A stretch of DNA of 32,410 nt from an uncultured Alsobacter sp. (lineage in GTDB: Bacteria; Pseudomonadota; Alphaproteobacteria; Rhizobiales; Beijerinckiaceae), in the NCBI RefSeq assembly GCF_945952055.1, contig NZ_CAMFHB010000063.1, positions 1-32,410 on the forward strand, read 5' to 3'. Under the pieces are notes generated by a model. It searched no databases. It was not told the origin of the DNA and saw only the letters and a program-made list of their open reading frames with translations. A program made the position numbers and the translations under genes. Numbering within the stretch: the first letter of the stretch is position 1; each line of letters opens with the position of its first letter. Below, in pieces: positions 2,909-23,294 of this stretch.

Positions 2909-3748
2909 TCAGTCCCGTTCGGCCCGGCGGCGCGGATCGAGCCAGTCGGCGAGACCGTCGCCGACGAGGTTGATGGCCAGCACCGCCAGCAGGATCGCTC
3001 CGCCCGGTGCCAGCGCCACCCACGGCGCGCTGCGGACATAGTCGAGGTTCAAGGACACGTCGGCCCCCCATTCGGGTGCGGGCGGCTGCGCGCCGAGGCC
3101 GAGGAAGCCCAGGCTCGCCGTCTGCAGGATGGCACTGCCGAGCGACAGCGTCGACTGGACGAGGAGCGGACCGACGCCGTTGGCCAGCACGTAGCGGGTA
3201 AGGATGCGACCGCGCGTCAGCCCGAGCGTCACGGCGGCCTCGACATAGGGGCGCGAGGCGATGGCGACGGCCTGCCCGCGCGCCACGCGGGCGAATTGCG
3301 GGGCGAGCGTGATGGCCACCGCCAGCATGGCGTTCTGCAGGCTTGGCCCGAAGGCCGCCGCCAGCGCCGTGGCGAGCACCAGTCCGGGGAAGGACAACAT
3401 GGCGTCGACGACGCGCATGATGACCGCGTCCACCCAGCCGCCCGCATAGCCCGCCAGCGTGCCGAGCGGCACGCCGACGAGGAAGGCGAGCGCCACGACG
3501 CCGAGCCCGATCGCCAGCGTCACCTGCCCGCCATAGAGCACCCGGGTCGCCACGTCGCGGCCGAACGCGTCGGTGCCGAGCCAATGCGTCGGCCCGGGCG
3601 GGGCGAGCTTGTGCAGGATGTCGAGGCGCGTCGGCGTGTAGGGCGAGAGCCACGGCACGAGCGCCGAGCCGATGGCGAGCGCCAGAAGCAGCACGAGGCC
3701 GGCGAGGGCGAGCGGGTTGGCCCGCAGGAAGGCGACCGCGTCCTTCAC
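2909..3748 (-). CDS. ABC transporter permease, DppC/OppC/GsiD type
   Basis: This 279-residue inner-membrane permease belongs to the peptide/nickel/glutathione importer class. The N-terminus has one membrane segment (about residues 12-32) and then the family phrase HWLGTDAFGRDV, typical of DppC. A run of hydrophobic segments follows. The cytoplasmic EAA loop, YVEAAVTLGLTRGRILTRYV, near residues 168-187 contacts the ATPase, and the GFLGLGAQPPAPEWG segment is typical of the C-terminal half. It overlaps permease B by 4 bp (ATGA-type overlap at 3745-3748), so the two are translationally coupled. Its stop codon is in frame with the next gene. It should pair with permease B and the fused ATPase at 7773-9587. 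Confidence 0.94.
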   Translation of the reverse strand: MKDAVAFLRANPLALAGLVLLLALAIGSALVPWLSPYTPTRLDILHKLAPPGPTHWLGTDAFGRDVATRVLYGGQVTLAIGLGVVALAFLVGVPLGTLAGYAGGWVDAVIMRVVDAMLSFPGLVLATALAAAFGPSLQNAMLAVAITLAPQFARVARGQAVAIASRPYVEAAVTLGLTRGRILTRYVLANGVGPLLVQSTLSLGSAILQTASLGFLGLGAQPPAPEWGADVSLNLDYVRSAPWVALAPGGAILLAVLAINLVGDGLADWLDPRRRAERD

Positions 3749-4758: not shown

Positions 4759-4808
4759 GGGGAGGGGACCTGCCGAAACGCCCAGTCCTTCAGCCTTGCC
4801 CTCTCAGC

Positions 4809-4896
4809 CGTCATGGCCGGGCCTGGCCCGGCCATCCACGACTTTGTCTGGGCCGTCCCGAAGTCGTGGATGCCCGGGCCAGGCCCGGGCATGACG
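4809..4896. repeat. Palindromic intergenic element, full copy A
   Basis: An 88-bp element starts CGTCATGGCC and ends GGGCATGACG. Each end forms its own GC hairpin (GGCCGGG..CCCGGCC on the left, GCCCGGG..CCCGGGC on the right), and the inner arms CCACGACTT and AAGTCGTGG can pair with each other across a 17-nt spacer. It is thus two inverted copies of one roughly 35-nt unit. Near-identical elements lie at 6707-6796 and 9611-9695, with a half copy at 16777-16807. This copy sits inside the transporter operon between the binding-protein and permease genes, a classic position for REP-like elements that protect the upstream message from 3' decay. Confidence 0.88.
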
Positions 4897-18857: not shown

Positions 18858-18889
18858 GTTACCCCACAAAAAGTGCGTTGTGGGGTAAC
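18858..18889. repeat. Palindrome 1 of a tandem pair (12-8-12)
   Basis: GTTACCCCACAA at 18858-18869 is inverted perfectly at 18878-18889 (TTGTGGGGTAAC) around an 8-nt spacer, AAAGTGCG. It lies 24 bp after the racemase-like stop and 13 bp before a second palindrome with the same arms and spacer length. No T-tract follows, so a terminator is a poor explanation. Confidence 0.9.
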
Positions 18890-18897
18890 GAACCCTT

Positions 18898-18939
18898 GTC
18901 GAGTTACCCCACAAATGATAGTTTGTGGGGTAACTCGAC
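18898..18939. repeat. Palindrome 2 of a tandem pair, overlapping the nucleotidyltransferase leader
   Basis: The same 12-bp arms occur at 18903-18914 and 18923-18934, again 8 nt apart. Here the match extends inward and outward to perfect 18-bp arms (GTCGAGTTACCCCACAAA, 18898-18915, and its inverse, 18922-18939) around TGATAG. The right arm ends at the GAGG ribosome site (18940-18943) of the next gene, so folding of the message or binding of a protein here would hide or flank the translation start. Confidence 0.92.
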
Positions 18940-18948
18940 GAGGCCGCC

Positions 18949-19998
18949 ATGTCCGCGATGCTCTCCCTGCAGTTCCAGACGATGTATGCCCAACTGGTCG
19001 ACATTGCCCATTTGGGTCGGCTGCAGTCGGATTTTGCCTCTACCGGAAACTTCGTCTCGCGAACGATCAAGGGCCGCCGCTACTGGTATTTCAGGACACC
19101 GATGGAGGGGGGGAACCGGCGCGACCGGTACGTCGGACCCGACAGCCCCGAACTGGAGGAGCGGATCCGAAGGCACGGCGAGCAAAAGGAGAGCCGCCGG
19201 GAACGGCGTACACTCGTGACGGGACTGCAGCGGGCCGGTCTCAAGGGGCCCGATGCGCGCACCGGCGCCATTCTCGAAGCTCTAGAGGCTGCGGGCATCT
19301 TCAGGATGCGGGCGGTCGTCGTCGGCACGGTCGCCTACCAGGCTTATGCGGGGCTTCTCGGCGCGAAGCTGCAGGACCGCAACTTCATGACCCAGGACCT
19401 CGACGTCGCGCAGTTCGATGCGATCTCGATCGCGGTCGGGGACGCCGTGGCCACGCCTTTCCTTGACATCCTGAGGCAGGTCGATCCTTCAGCCGACGCG
19501 ATTGCCGAGACCTTCGAGCCGACCAAGGCCTGGCGATATCGCCTGGGCACCTACCAGGTCGAGATCCTGACCCCCAAGCGCGGCCCTGACGGGGATGCGC
19601 TCGTTCACCTTCCCGCCCTGAAGACCGATGCGAGACCCCTGCGGCATCTGGACTTCCTGATCTACCGGGAGATCCCGGCCGTGATCCTCCATGGGCTGGG
19701 GATCGCGGTCAATGTGCCGGCCCCCGAACGCTATTGCCTGCACAAGCTGATCGTCAGCCAGCGGCGACAGGCCACCGATGCCGTCTCCTACGCGAAATCG
19801 AGAAAGGATCTCGCGCAGGCGCAAGAGCTCATGGCCGCACTGATCCAGCAGAAGCCCCACGAGTTGCGTGACGCGTGGGACGAATTGCAGGACCGTGGGC
19901 CGAAGTGGCGCGAGCGTGTAGCGAAGGGCCTGGCGATGATCGACCCCGGCGTTCGCTCCGCCTTCGAGGGATTGGTCGGCCCGTCCGGGCCGACCTGA
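18949..19998 (+). CDS. GSU2403-type nucleotidyltransferase-fold protein (NTP_transf_8)
   Basis: The 349-residue protein resembles the GSU2403 nucleotidyltransferase-fold family. Residues 1-115 are a helical region with the motif GRRYWYFRTP. The catalytic domain begins RAVVVGTVAYQAYAGLLGA (121-139), with GT-AY in place of the classic GS loop, and the DLD metal site follows at 150-152 (TQDLDVAQFD). A later GIAVNVPAPERYCLHKLIVSQ segment is also typical. GAGG five bases upstream supports the ATG at 18949. The polymerase-beta fold transfers a nucleotide to RNA, protein or small molecules; the target of this family is unknown. No partner gene is adjacent, and two large palindromes precede it. GC is visibly lower than in neighbours, hinting at transfer. 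Confidence 0.82.
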   Translation: MSAMLSLQFQTMYAQLVDIAHLGRLQSDFASTGNFVSRTIKGRRYWYFRTPMEGGNRRDRYVGPDSPELEERIRRHGEQKESRRERRTLVTGLQRAGLKGPDARTGAILEALEAAGIFRMRAVVVGTVAYQAYAGLLGAKLQDRNFMTQDLDVAQFDAISIAVGDAVATPFLDILRQVDPSADAIAETFEPTKAWRYRLGTYQVEILTPKRGPDGDALVHLPALKTDARPLRHLDFLIYREIPAVILHGLGIAVNVPAPERYCLHKLIVSQRRQATDAVSYAKSRKDLAQAQELMAALIQQKPHELRDAWDELQDRGPKWRERVAKGLAMIDPGVRSAFEGLVGPSGPT

Positions 19999-20072: not shown

Positions 20073-20567
20073 ATGACACCGCAGCCCGATCCCGTCGCGC
20101 CCGGCCAGGAAAGCGTCTGGCGCTATCCCCGCCCGGCCATCGCCGAGCCAACCTCGGCCCACATCGTCATCGAGCACGCGGGCCTCGTCATCGCCGACAC
20201 GCGATCGGCCATCCGCACGCTCGAGACGAGCCACCCGCCGAGCTACTACATTCCGCCGTCCGACATCCGCCCCGGCGTCCTGCGGCAAGCCACCGGCAGC
20301 TCCGTCTGCGAATGGAAGGGCAGGGCGGCCTACTGGGACGTCGTGGTCGGCGACACCGTTCTGGCCCGCGTCGGCTGGAGCTACCCGGACCCGACACCAC
20401 CCTTCGCTCTGCTGCGCGACCACGTCGCCTTCTACGCCCGCCCCTTCGACTGCTGCACGGTCGACGGCGAGACAGTCGTGCCGCAGGAAGGCGACTTCTA
20501 TGGCGGCTGGATCACGAGCAAGGTCGCCGGCCCGTTCAAGGGCGCGCCGGGCAGTTGGGGGTGGTGA
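20073..20567 (+). CDS. DUF427 domain-containing protein
   Basis: This 164-residue protein has one DUF427 domain (PF04248). HIVIEHAGLVIADTRSAIRTLE is the first hairpin and PPSYYIPPSDIR follows; CEWKGRAAYWDV and HVAFYARPFDCCTVDGE complete the fold. AAAGGAGG at 20058-20065 gives a near-perfect ribosome site seven bases before the ATG at 20073. DUF427 is a small beta-rich fold common in actinobacteria and alphaproteobacteria with no assigned function. The gene lies 74 bp after the nucleotidyltransferase and ends convergently with the D-aminopeptidase gene. Confidence 0.92.
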   Translation: MTPQPDPVAPGQESVWRYPRPAIAEPTSAHIVIEHAGLVIADTRSAIRTLETSHPPSYYIPPSDIRPGVLRQATGSSVCEWKGRAAYWDVVVGDTVLARVGWSYPDPTPPFALLRDHVAFYARPFDCCTVDGETVVPQEGDFYGGWITSKVAGPFKGAPGSWGW

Positions 20568-22411: not shown

Positions 22412-22747
22412 ATGACGCCTCGCAAGTCCTCGGCCAAGCGCGGGCCCGGCGTGGAGCGATCCACGCGCGGGTCTTCCCGAACCGCGCGGATGCCGATGGC
22501 CGCGGCCCATGCTTCGCTCCTCGAGGAGGCTCGCGTCGCCGGGCTCCTCGACGGCGAGAAGTCGGAGCATGTGAGCTTCAGGGCGCCGCCGGCCCTGATC
22601 GAGGCCGCCAAGCGCGAGACCGGGCTGAGCTCGATGAGCGAACTCGGCACGCTGGCTTTGGCCATGCTGGCCCAACCGGATCCCGCGGGCCGCTTCCTCA
22701 AGCGGACGCGGGGGCGCCTGGGGAAGGCGCACACGCTTGAAACCTGA
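22412..22747 (+). CDS. Ribbon-helix-helix antitoxin-like protein
   Basis: The 111-residue protein has a basic, disordered N-terminus (about residues 1-30) and then a short helix. Residues 52-90 fit a ribbon-helix-helix unit: strand EHVSFRAP, helix ALIEAAKRETG, turn, helix SMSELGTLALAML. A basic tail follows. GGAG six bases before the ATG at 22412 supports the start. It overlaps the PIN-domain gene by 11 bp in a different frame, the usual arrangement of type II toxin-antitoxin pairs with the antitoxin first. It would bind the PIN protein and repress the operon. I do not recognise a named antitoxin family, so the role comes from fold and context. Confidence 0.72.
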   Translation: MTPRKSSAKRGPGVERSTRGSSRTARMPMAAAHASLLEEARVAGLLDGEKSEHVSFRAPPALIEAAKRETGLSSMSELGTLALAMLAQPDPAGRFLKRTRGRLGKAHTLET

Positions 22748-23294
22748 TCTGCGTGCAGCGCTGCGGCGGCGGAAGCCGGAGCGGCAGCGCGACGCACTCG
22801 TTCCCCGCAGTCCGTCTGCCCAGGTCAGCGCCATGGATCTGCGTGGCAGGCGCGTGGCGCTTGTCCTCGACACCAACGTCTACATCAACGCTGCGGCCGG
22901 GCGCCTCGACCCGCAGGTGGGAGCGCTCGTCGAGAACGCCCTGCTGTTTCACTGCAGCGTCTGCTTGAGCGAAATCGCTCTCGGCATCGGCAATGCTGAC
23001 CCTCGGCACCAGACGTGGACGGCCACGCGCGACCACTATGCCGAACTCTTCGCGAGCATCCCGGCATCGCGCCTGCTGACCCCGGACGATGGGATCTGGA
23101 CAGAGGCCGGGCTGATTGCCGGCACCCTGGCCCGGACGCAGGGCCTGCAACCATTCCAGCGCAAGGACCTTCTGAACGACGCGCTCATCTACCTGACCGC
23201 CAGCAAGGCCGGGGTTCCCGTGCTCACGCAGAATCGCGTCGAGTTCGATTTCATCCAGCAGTTGGCTCCGGAGGGGAGCTTCATTCACTACTGA
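22737..23294 (+). CDS. PIN-domain ribonuclease toxin (VapC-like)
   Basis: This 185-residue protein has the PIN acidic residues in order: Asp45 in VLDTNVYINA, Glu79 in CLSEIALG, Asp148 in KDLLNDALIYLTA, and TQNRVEFDF near 164-172 for the last position. PIN toxins are magnesium-dependent RNases that cut tRNA, rRNA or mRNA. I chose the TTG at 22737 because GGGAAGG lies nine bases upstream and the following 32 codons have coding-like GC-rich third positions; the ATG at 22833 has no ribosome site but would give a more standard length of 153 residues. It follows the RHH gene with an 11-bp overlap. A terminator shared with the convergent nrdJ lies 50 bp beyond the stop. Confidence 0.84.
   Translation: MKPDLRAALRRRKPERQRDALVPRSPSAQVSAMDLRGRRVALVLDTNVYINAAAGRLDPQVGALVENALLFHCSVCLSEIALGIGNADPRHQTWTATRDHYAELFASIPASRLLTPDDGIWTEAGLIAGTLARTQGLQPFQRKDLLNDALIYLTASKAGVPVLTQNRVEFDFIQQLAPEGSFIHY

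Follow-up and report, generated by a model that had tools for sequence, protein, structure and literature searches.

Tandem dyads upstream of a solitary NTP_transf_8 nucleotidyltransferase gene as probable operators of its own product

In the window, i.e., the whole stretch of 32,410 nucleotides of Alsobacter DNA analyzed here, a gene for a GSU2403-type nucleotidyltransferase is preceded by two palindromes (dyads) for which the best explanation is that they serve the encoded protein as operators in tandem. The locus would then probably be a one-gene, self-repressing cargo nucleotidyltransferase. Most of the relatives examined have a palindromic site in the corresponding position, each with letters of its own, and this suggests that every enzyme represses the gene that encodes it.

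The two dyads (Table 1) were described in an earlier note on this DNA as twin 12-8-12 palindromes with shared arms, 8-nt gaps, a 45-bp offset and an 18-bp extension of the second, and every part of that description was confirmed. Both have the 12-mer GTTACCCCACAA as left arm and its reverse complement as right arm, with a gap of 8 nt and unlike spacers, and both their starts and their centres lie 45 bp apart. At 95% match, the arms of the proximal dyad lengthen to 22 bp (18894–18943) and reach up to the GAGG of the possible ribosome site. With up to two mismatches, the 12-mer occurs four times in the window against 0.40 expected and a maximum of three in 100 shuffles, and the best inverted repeat 5' of the gene scores 19 against a maximum of 8 in 100 dinucleotide shuffles; the dyads are not a product of chance. 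With up to three mismatches, the dyad is confined to these two sites in the genome to which the window belongs (G000, 98.7% complete, 106 contigs). The candidate promoter overlapping the proximal dyad scored 8.0 on a home-made scale that has no null.

Table 1. Features of the nucleotidyltransferase locus (positions in the window; proposed functions are putative)
Feature	Positions	Strand	Remarks
Distal dyad, proposed operator O2	18858..18889	.	GTTACCCCACAA at 18858-18869, reverse complement at 18878-18889; 8-bp spacer
Proximal dyad, proposed operator O1	18898..18939	.	Perfect 18-bp arms 18898-18915 and 18922-18939; ends beside ribosome site
Core 12-8-12 of proximal dyad	18903-18934		GTTACCCCACAA at 18903-18914, reverse complement at 18923-18934; centre 30.5 bp 5' of start codon
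Weak sigma-70-like candidate promoter TTGTCG-17-TAGTTT	18896..18924	+	Overlaps proximal dyad; consensus match
Possible ribosome site GAGG	18940..18943	+	From sequence; 5 nt 5' of ATG at 18949
Gene for 349-aa NTP_transf_8 (GSU2403-type) nucleotidyltransferase	18949..19998	+	
N-terminal domain, residues 1-97	18949..19239	+	Proposed operator reader; AlphaFold2 pLDDT 75.7
Nucleotidyltransferase domain, residues 104-313	19258..19887	+	Pfam and conservation

Dyads at this position are a property of the family. After the removal of identical upstream regions, unaligned N-termini and upstream regions shorter than 100 bases, 111 ORF hits were reduced to 95 homologues, and an inverted repeat scoring at least 10 lies upstream of 69 of these (at least 9 in 75/95), leaving 26 of the 95 below 10. 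The same score was reached in only 6/268 control windows, which had been shifted upstream by another 300, 450 and 600 bp, in the downstream regions of 3/95 homologues and, among the other ORFs of 150 aa or more that these loci contain, upstream of 12/184. With seven viral loci added to the 95, a dyad of at least 9 was found within the range used in 71/102, and in a separate scan 14/102 lacked any dyad scoring 8 or more. A further batch, searched with slightly wider arms and without a matching control, comprised 22 copies with an aligned N-terminus, of which 16 showed a dyad scoring 9 or more (hand count). Since the loci are related by shared ancestry, none of these counts represents independent events. 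The earlier note had expected the window's palindromes to recur upstream of close homologues, and this held for the layout and failed for the letters: the closest relatives (L021 and L020, 56–58% identical) have similarly laid-out dyads of the TTTACCCACAAATTG and TTACACACAA types in place of GTTACCCCACAA. The family thus keeps the position and rough layout of the dyad while its letters change by lineage.

A symmetry profile was drawn up from 132 dyads; a locus may contribute several of these, and some are inner dyads that arise where arms of twin sites adjoin. Symmetry is 0.94 or more at half-distances 8–13, drops to 0.36–0.50 in the central 8 bp and is about one half at 15. Because the dyads were chosen for symmetry, the height of this profile is partly built in and its edges are the finding: the dyad consists of two half-sites of ~11 bp with a spacer of ~8 bp, about two turns apart. 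Some bases recur in the half-sites (T at 13 in 75%, C at 6 in 52% and A at 3–5 in 52–59%) and the others vary. The operator is duplicated in 40 of the 71 loci with a good dyad, the twin copies being 34–38 (24 loci), 44–47 (4 loci), 53–57 (10 loci), 61 or 67 bp apart. In a circular test at 10.5 bp, which ignores relatedness, this clustering has a p of about 1e-5 for all 40 loci and of 0.009 for the distinct values; for all 40 the test is stronger at 9.5–10 bp than at 10.5 bp. Clustering near 36, 46 and 55 bp suggests that two dimers may occupy a similar face of the DNA.

A mechanism can be proposed on this basis. Locus-specific dyads, kept in position and rough geometry, overlap or adjoin candidate promoter elements (consensus matches). 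As the covariation described below suggests, each dyad would be read by a dimer of the protein, every subunit contacting one 11-bp half-site with its N-terminal domain, and the promoter would thereby be repressed, such that the enzyme is made only until it shuts itself off, or upon relief of repression.

The product itself is a clear member of PF12281 (NTP_transf_8; E 1.1e-60, 205.7 bits against a gathering cut-off of 26.3), and no NCBIfam model matched it at E ≤ 0.1. Ten residues that are each conserved in 94–100% of 95 proteins (G126, T127, T148, D150, D152, H265, K266, K283, D287 and Q290) are all present. In one Rhizobium-type clade the protein changes slowly (dN/dS 0.06–0.11 in six pairs among four copies) and is, judged by these ratios, under purifying selection. 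The lower GC content that the earlier note had seen in the gene was borne out by measurement (65.2%, GC3 0.817, against 70.5–71.8%, GC3 0.896–0.943, in three neighbours). For the 97 N-terminal residues, a helix (7–22), three strands (34–40, 43–49 and 59–64) and a second helix (67–96) are predicted; the domain gave no convincing fold match or relative, a Pfam hint being sub-threshold, and the quality of the model for the whole protein is low (pLDDT 59.8). In four relatives (L115, L074, L052 and L061), a C-terminal DUF1488 domain is fused to the nucleotidyltransferase.

The gene is patchily distributed, being present in 46/199 genomes of the family and in 44/299 sampled from the phylum, and NTP_transf_8 occurs in 455 plasmid records. 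In plasmid pRlX2 of Rhizobium johnstonii, it lies between two hutC genes, and two R. leguminosarum plasmids (L180, L181) have the same hutC-hutC place without it. Additional Rhizobium plasmid records showed the same two- or three-piece pattern at the hut place, which in strain WSM1325 is occupied instead by a Crp/Fnr gene together with a hypothetical one; the cargo of the hutC-hutC gap thus varies among Rhizobium strains (L179 4716–6351; L180, L181, L182). Twin operators of the Rhizobium type remain in Rhizobium beringeri (L217 2001–2103) with no homologue found beside them, and three copies (L022, L128 and L129) are apparently split over two frames. On phage contig L119, the gene and its twin operators are located between the portal and scaffold genes, and contigs L120–L122 have portal and scaffold neighbours in common with it. 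In phage PAE2, whose coat protein is 46% identical, just two hypothetical ORFs lie between the portal and coat genes. The four contigs L119–L122 represent phages with P22-type head genes, in which the NTP_transf_8 gene resembles a moron. The gene was also seen twice, about 7.7 kb apart, in a 36.8-kb viral contig (IMGVR_UViG_3300043251_000087; L116, L117), either by duplication or as an assembly repeat. Gene and operators appear to travel together as a unit, on plasmids, on chromosomes and in phages, mobility being supported indirectly. The earlier note's idea of a mobile unit gains from the recurrence of one unit in unlike contexts and from the filled and empty hut sites, and for the window itself no empty site was shown.

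What the enzyme does after its release from repression is a matter of analogy. As in AbiE and MenAT, it may be a toxin or defence effector whose target is an RNA or protein of the cell or of an invader, a plausible guess to which we would give somewhat less than an even chance. According to PMC3985639, AbiE (AbiEi/AbiEii) of Streptococcus agalactiae is a type IV toxin-antitoxin system whose winged-helix antitoxin AbiEi autorepresses through inverted repeats. The likeness lies in a pol-beta-type nucleotidyltransferase gene behind promoter inverted repeats, in an hG[G/S]..DhD-type motif and in a conserved H-K-L with a later arginine that by eye resembles AbiE motif III. The difference is that AbiE comprises two genes with AbiEi as a separate repressor, whereas the window unit is a single gene with another N-terminal domain and no partner seen. 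One hhalign comparison with ten script-picked AbiEii-matched proteins aligned 44 columns around motifs I–II but was not convincing (probability 2%, E 0.024), and PF08843 is absent among the Pfam matches of 25 A1 members at E ≤ 10, a search in which weak matches can be filtered out. By Pfam, the NTP_transf_8 enzyme stands outside AbiEii/DUF1814, a remote common origin with AbiEii being possible.

In MenAT (PMC7319586, PMC11375011; see also PMC10435456), two pairs of inverted repeats overlap the promoter of the nucleotidyltransferase toxin operon, and neither the MenAT antitoxin Rv2827c nor AbiEi bound the other's repeats (PMC7319586, PMC11375011). MenAT has two genes, 23-bp repeats and a regulator apart from the enzyme, in contrast to the single gene of the window. 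Inverted repeats at the promoter are shared with both systems, the promoter overlap being judged here by consensus match, whereas the adjoining antitoxin gene of both has no recurrent counterpart in the compared flanks of the 102 loci. No ORF family (at least 60 aa, blastp E ≤ 1e-6) recurred in the flanks of more than four of these loci, the flanks compared being mostly about 1.5 kb, such that shorter, diverged or distant partners may escape. The self-contained unit proposed in the earlier note fits this result, and control of the unit by the protein it encodes, acting at the palindromes, is probable. An ORF that by eye resembles a Phd-type antitoxin was noted in four flanks (L010, L087, L021 and L040), at scattered distances and on either strand. 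The best reading is that the window unit follows a logic like that of AbiE and MenAT with regulator and enzyme in one chain, short of membership in either system. Among the open-licence papers searched, one names GSU2403, in an RNA-seq table (PMC7962754); in these papers we found neither a mention of the PF12281 name or number nor a description of the self-operator feature.

The same operators would serve a self-regulated housekeeping or metabolic nucleotidyltransferase equally well, an explanation that parts from ours only in giving the enzyme no role as toxin or in defence. Purifying selection is in its favour, as is PADLOC-DB 2.0.0, in which no family matched the window protein at E ≤ 0.1. 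The patchy presence, the plasmids and the phage contigs with the gene between head genes fit cargo better, and so do the apparently split copies and the operator remnant without a gene beside it; we regard a housekeeping role as rather unlikely, while giving it real weight. Going further than self-repression, the family could consist of widespread one-gene selfish or defence units in which the enzyme is its own repressor and operator specificity diversifies like that of phage repressors, with the dyads defining immunity groups. Copies with the same operator would then silence each other on entry, and a naive cell would express those whose operator is new. This extension is speculative, and we think it improbable as it stands.

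If self-repression is true, an uncharacterised enzyme family becomes a testable system in which one protein is both enzyme and repressor and the private operator of each lineage is legible in the genome sequence. The system would represent a compact variant of the AbiE/MenAT logic and, in a single small domain whose fold has no known match, a natural collection of many DNA specificities; it could also point the way to a new toxin or defence effector. The true start of the gene and decayed copies are easier to recognise with the operator as a guide. In rhizobial copies (L183, about 3100–3193), a ATGAGCGAAG-type start was seen by eye between the operator and the start used, and the protein may be longer.

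Dyads of the 12-8-12 layout are typical of many dimeric regulators, and a separate host regulator could use them while the nucleotidyltransferase itself does not bind DNA. The operator sequence, however, follows the protein lineage rather than the host: G000 has GTTACCCCACAA, same-genus genomes G002 and G003, with more distant proteins, have TTGTAGACAAA types, and the two paralogues within G022 (L005 and L127) have unlike operators. A counter-case is G057, where one operator is common to two copies (L004 and L019). Occurrence at many unrelated loci, which according to the earlier note would speak against its reading, was seen in none of the three genomes tested (G000, G022 and G049), each operator standing only at its own gene; nor does a regulator gene recur in the compared flanks.

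Covariation between operator and protein bears on the same choice. When operator similarity was regressed on the identity of protein regions, N-terminal residues 1–64 gave a beta of 0.385, with 0/500 permutations as large, against 0.041 for residues 65–103 (118/500), −0.005 for 104–215 (249/500) and 0.138 for 216–330 (37/500). The N-terminal correlation is positive but uneven across bins of core identity (0.10, 0.43, 0.13 and 0.36), and below 30% N-terminal identity the mean operator similarity is 5.85 against 6.1 for shuffled half-sites. The per-column scan did not point at the N-terminal domain, which, like the lack of a recognised DNA-binding fold there, favours a host regulator: the enzyme domain holds all four columns above the 95% permutation level (286, 257, 261 and 273), and 4 of the top 15 covarying columns fall in residues 1–64, where 57/325 columns lie. 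The proposed N-terminal DNA binding rests on covariation, since the domain gave no convincing fold match; with the region regression for it and the per-column scan against it, this domain is the best candidate for the operator reader, not a demonstrated one. Taking both sides together, we consider a host regulator distinctly unlikely.

Repression of the gene by its own product presupposes that the dyads act as DNA. They could instead form a hairpin in the leader that controls translation or stability of the message, a form of control that the earlier note had also entertained, and the proximal dyad of the window can indeed make an 18-bp stem ending at the ribosome site. Among 166 arm mismatches, however, 37 are of the G-U type and 35 of the A-C type, and this lack of a G-U preference makes the dyads look like DNA operators rather than RNA hairpins. 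The recurring candidate promoters, identified by consensus match, have the form TTGnnn-17-TATACT/TATGTT with the −10 element inside the left half-site, so that many transcripts would be without the left arm; in many loci the best candidates place the start within or after that arm. In another layout, TTGAC lies near the dyad centre (L018, L086 and L090, and by eye L139, L140, L141 and L143), and in 57/71 loci a −35 or −10 candidate is located at most 17 bp from the dyad centre, a count for which no null was made. The clustered spacings of twin sites likewise argue against a hairpin, and we see very little chance that message structure is the explanation.

The boundaries of the unit can be compared in the plasmids. 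Filled and empty hut sites (L180, L181) differ by a piece of ~1.6 kb that begins ~90 bp ahead of the distal dyad and runs on for ~270 bp after the stop codon, and against L182 the edges lie ~50 bp before the distal dyad and ~145 bp past the stop. For the units with other flanks, on plasmids of Ensifer and S. meliloti, homology to the Rhizobium unit sets in 2–3 nt ahead of the distal operator; it ends 3–4 nt after the stop in two cases and about 150 bp later in a third. Because the hut insert is longer than the shared unit, the dyads are not the edges of the insert. A role of the dyads as sites at which a mobile unit recombines or inserts, for which one could cite the start of this homology at the distal dyad, the presence or absence of the unit between hutC genes, the tyrosine recombinase gene directly upstream in L178 and a group of tyrosine-integrase-like ORFs (by eye) in the flanks of three loci, is scarcely credible given that neither edge of the hut insert falls at a dyad, that the 12-mer is found nowhere in the window but in its two dyads, where the earlier note had seen a resemblance to tyrosine-recombinase sites, that no matching second site lies at the unit's other end, and that none of the six window ORFs scanned encodes a recombinase.

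On the Agrobacterium plasmid L178 (3012–4809, 7206–7797), the homologue that follows the recombinase gene is located among VapBC and RelE/ParE pairs. A ~97-bp stretch upstream of an S. meliloti copy (L177, about 4788–4884) recurs in other plasmids, and the whole L177 query was found at 252 places in 66 records. In the window, the next gene downstream (20073–20567) encodes a DUF427 protein, named NTP_transf_9 in Pfam, a likeness in name to NTP_transf_8 that is meaningless. Further on (22412–23294), a small ORF overlaps a PIN-domain gene (E 4.3e-05), and the two may form a toxin-antitoxin pair.
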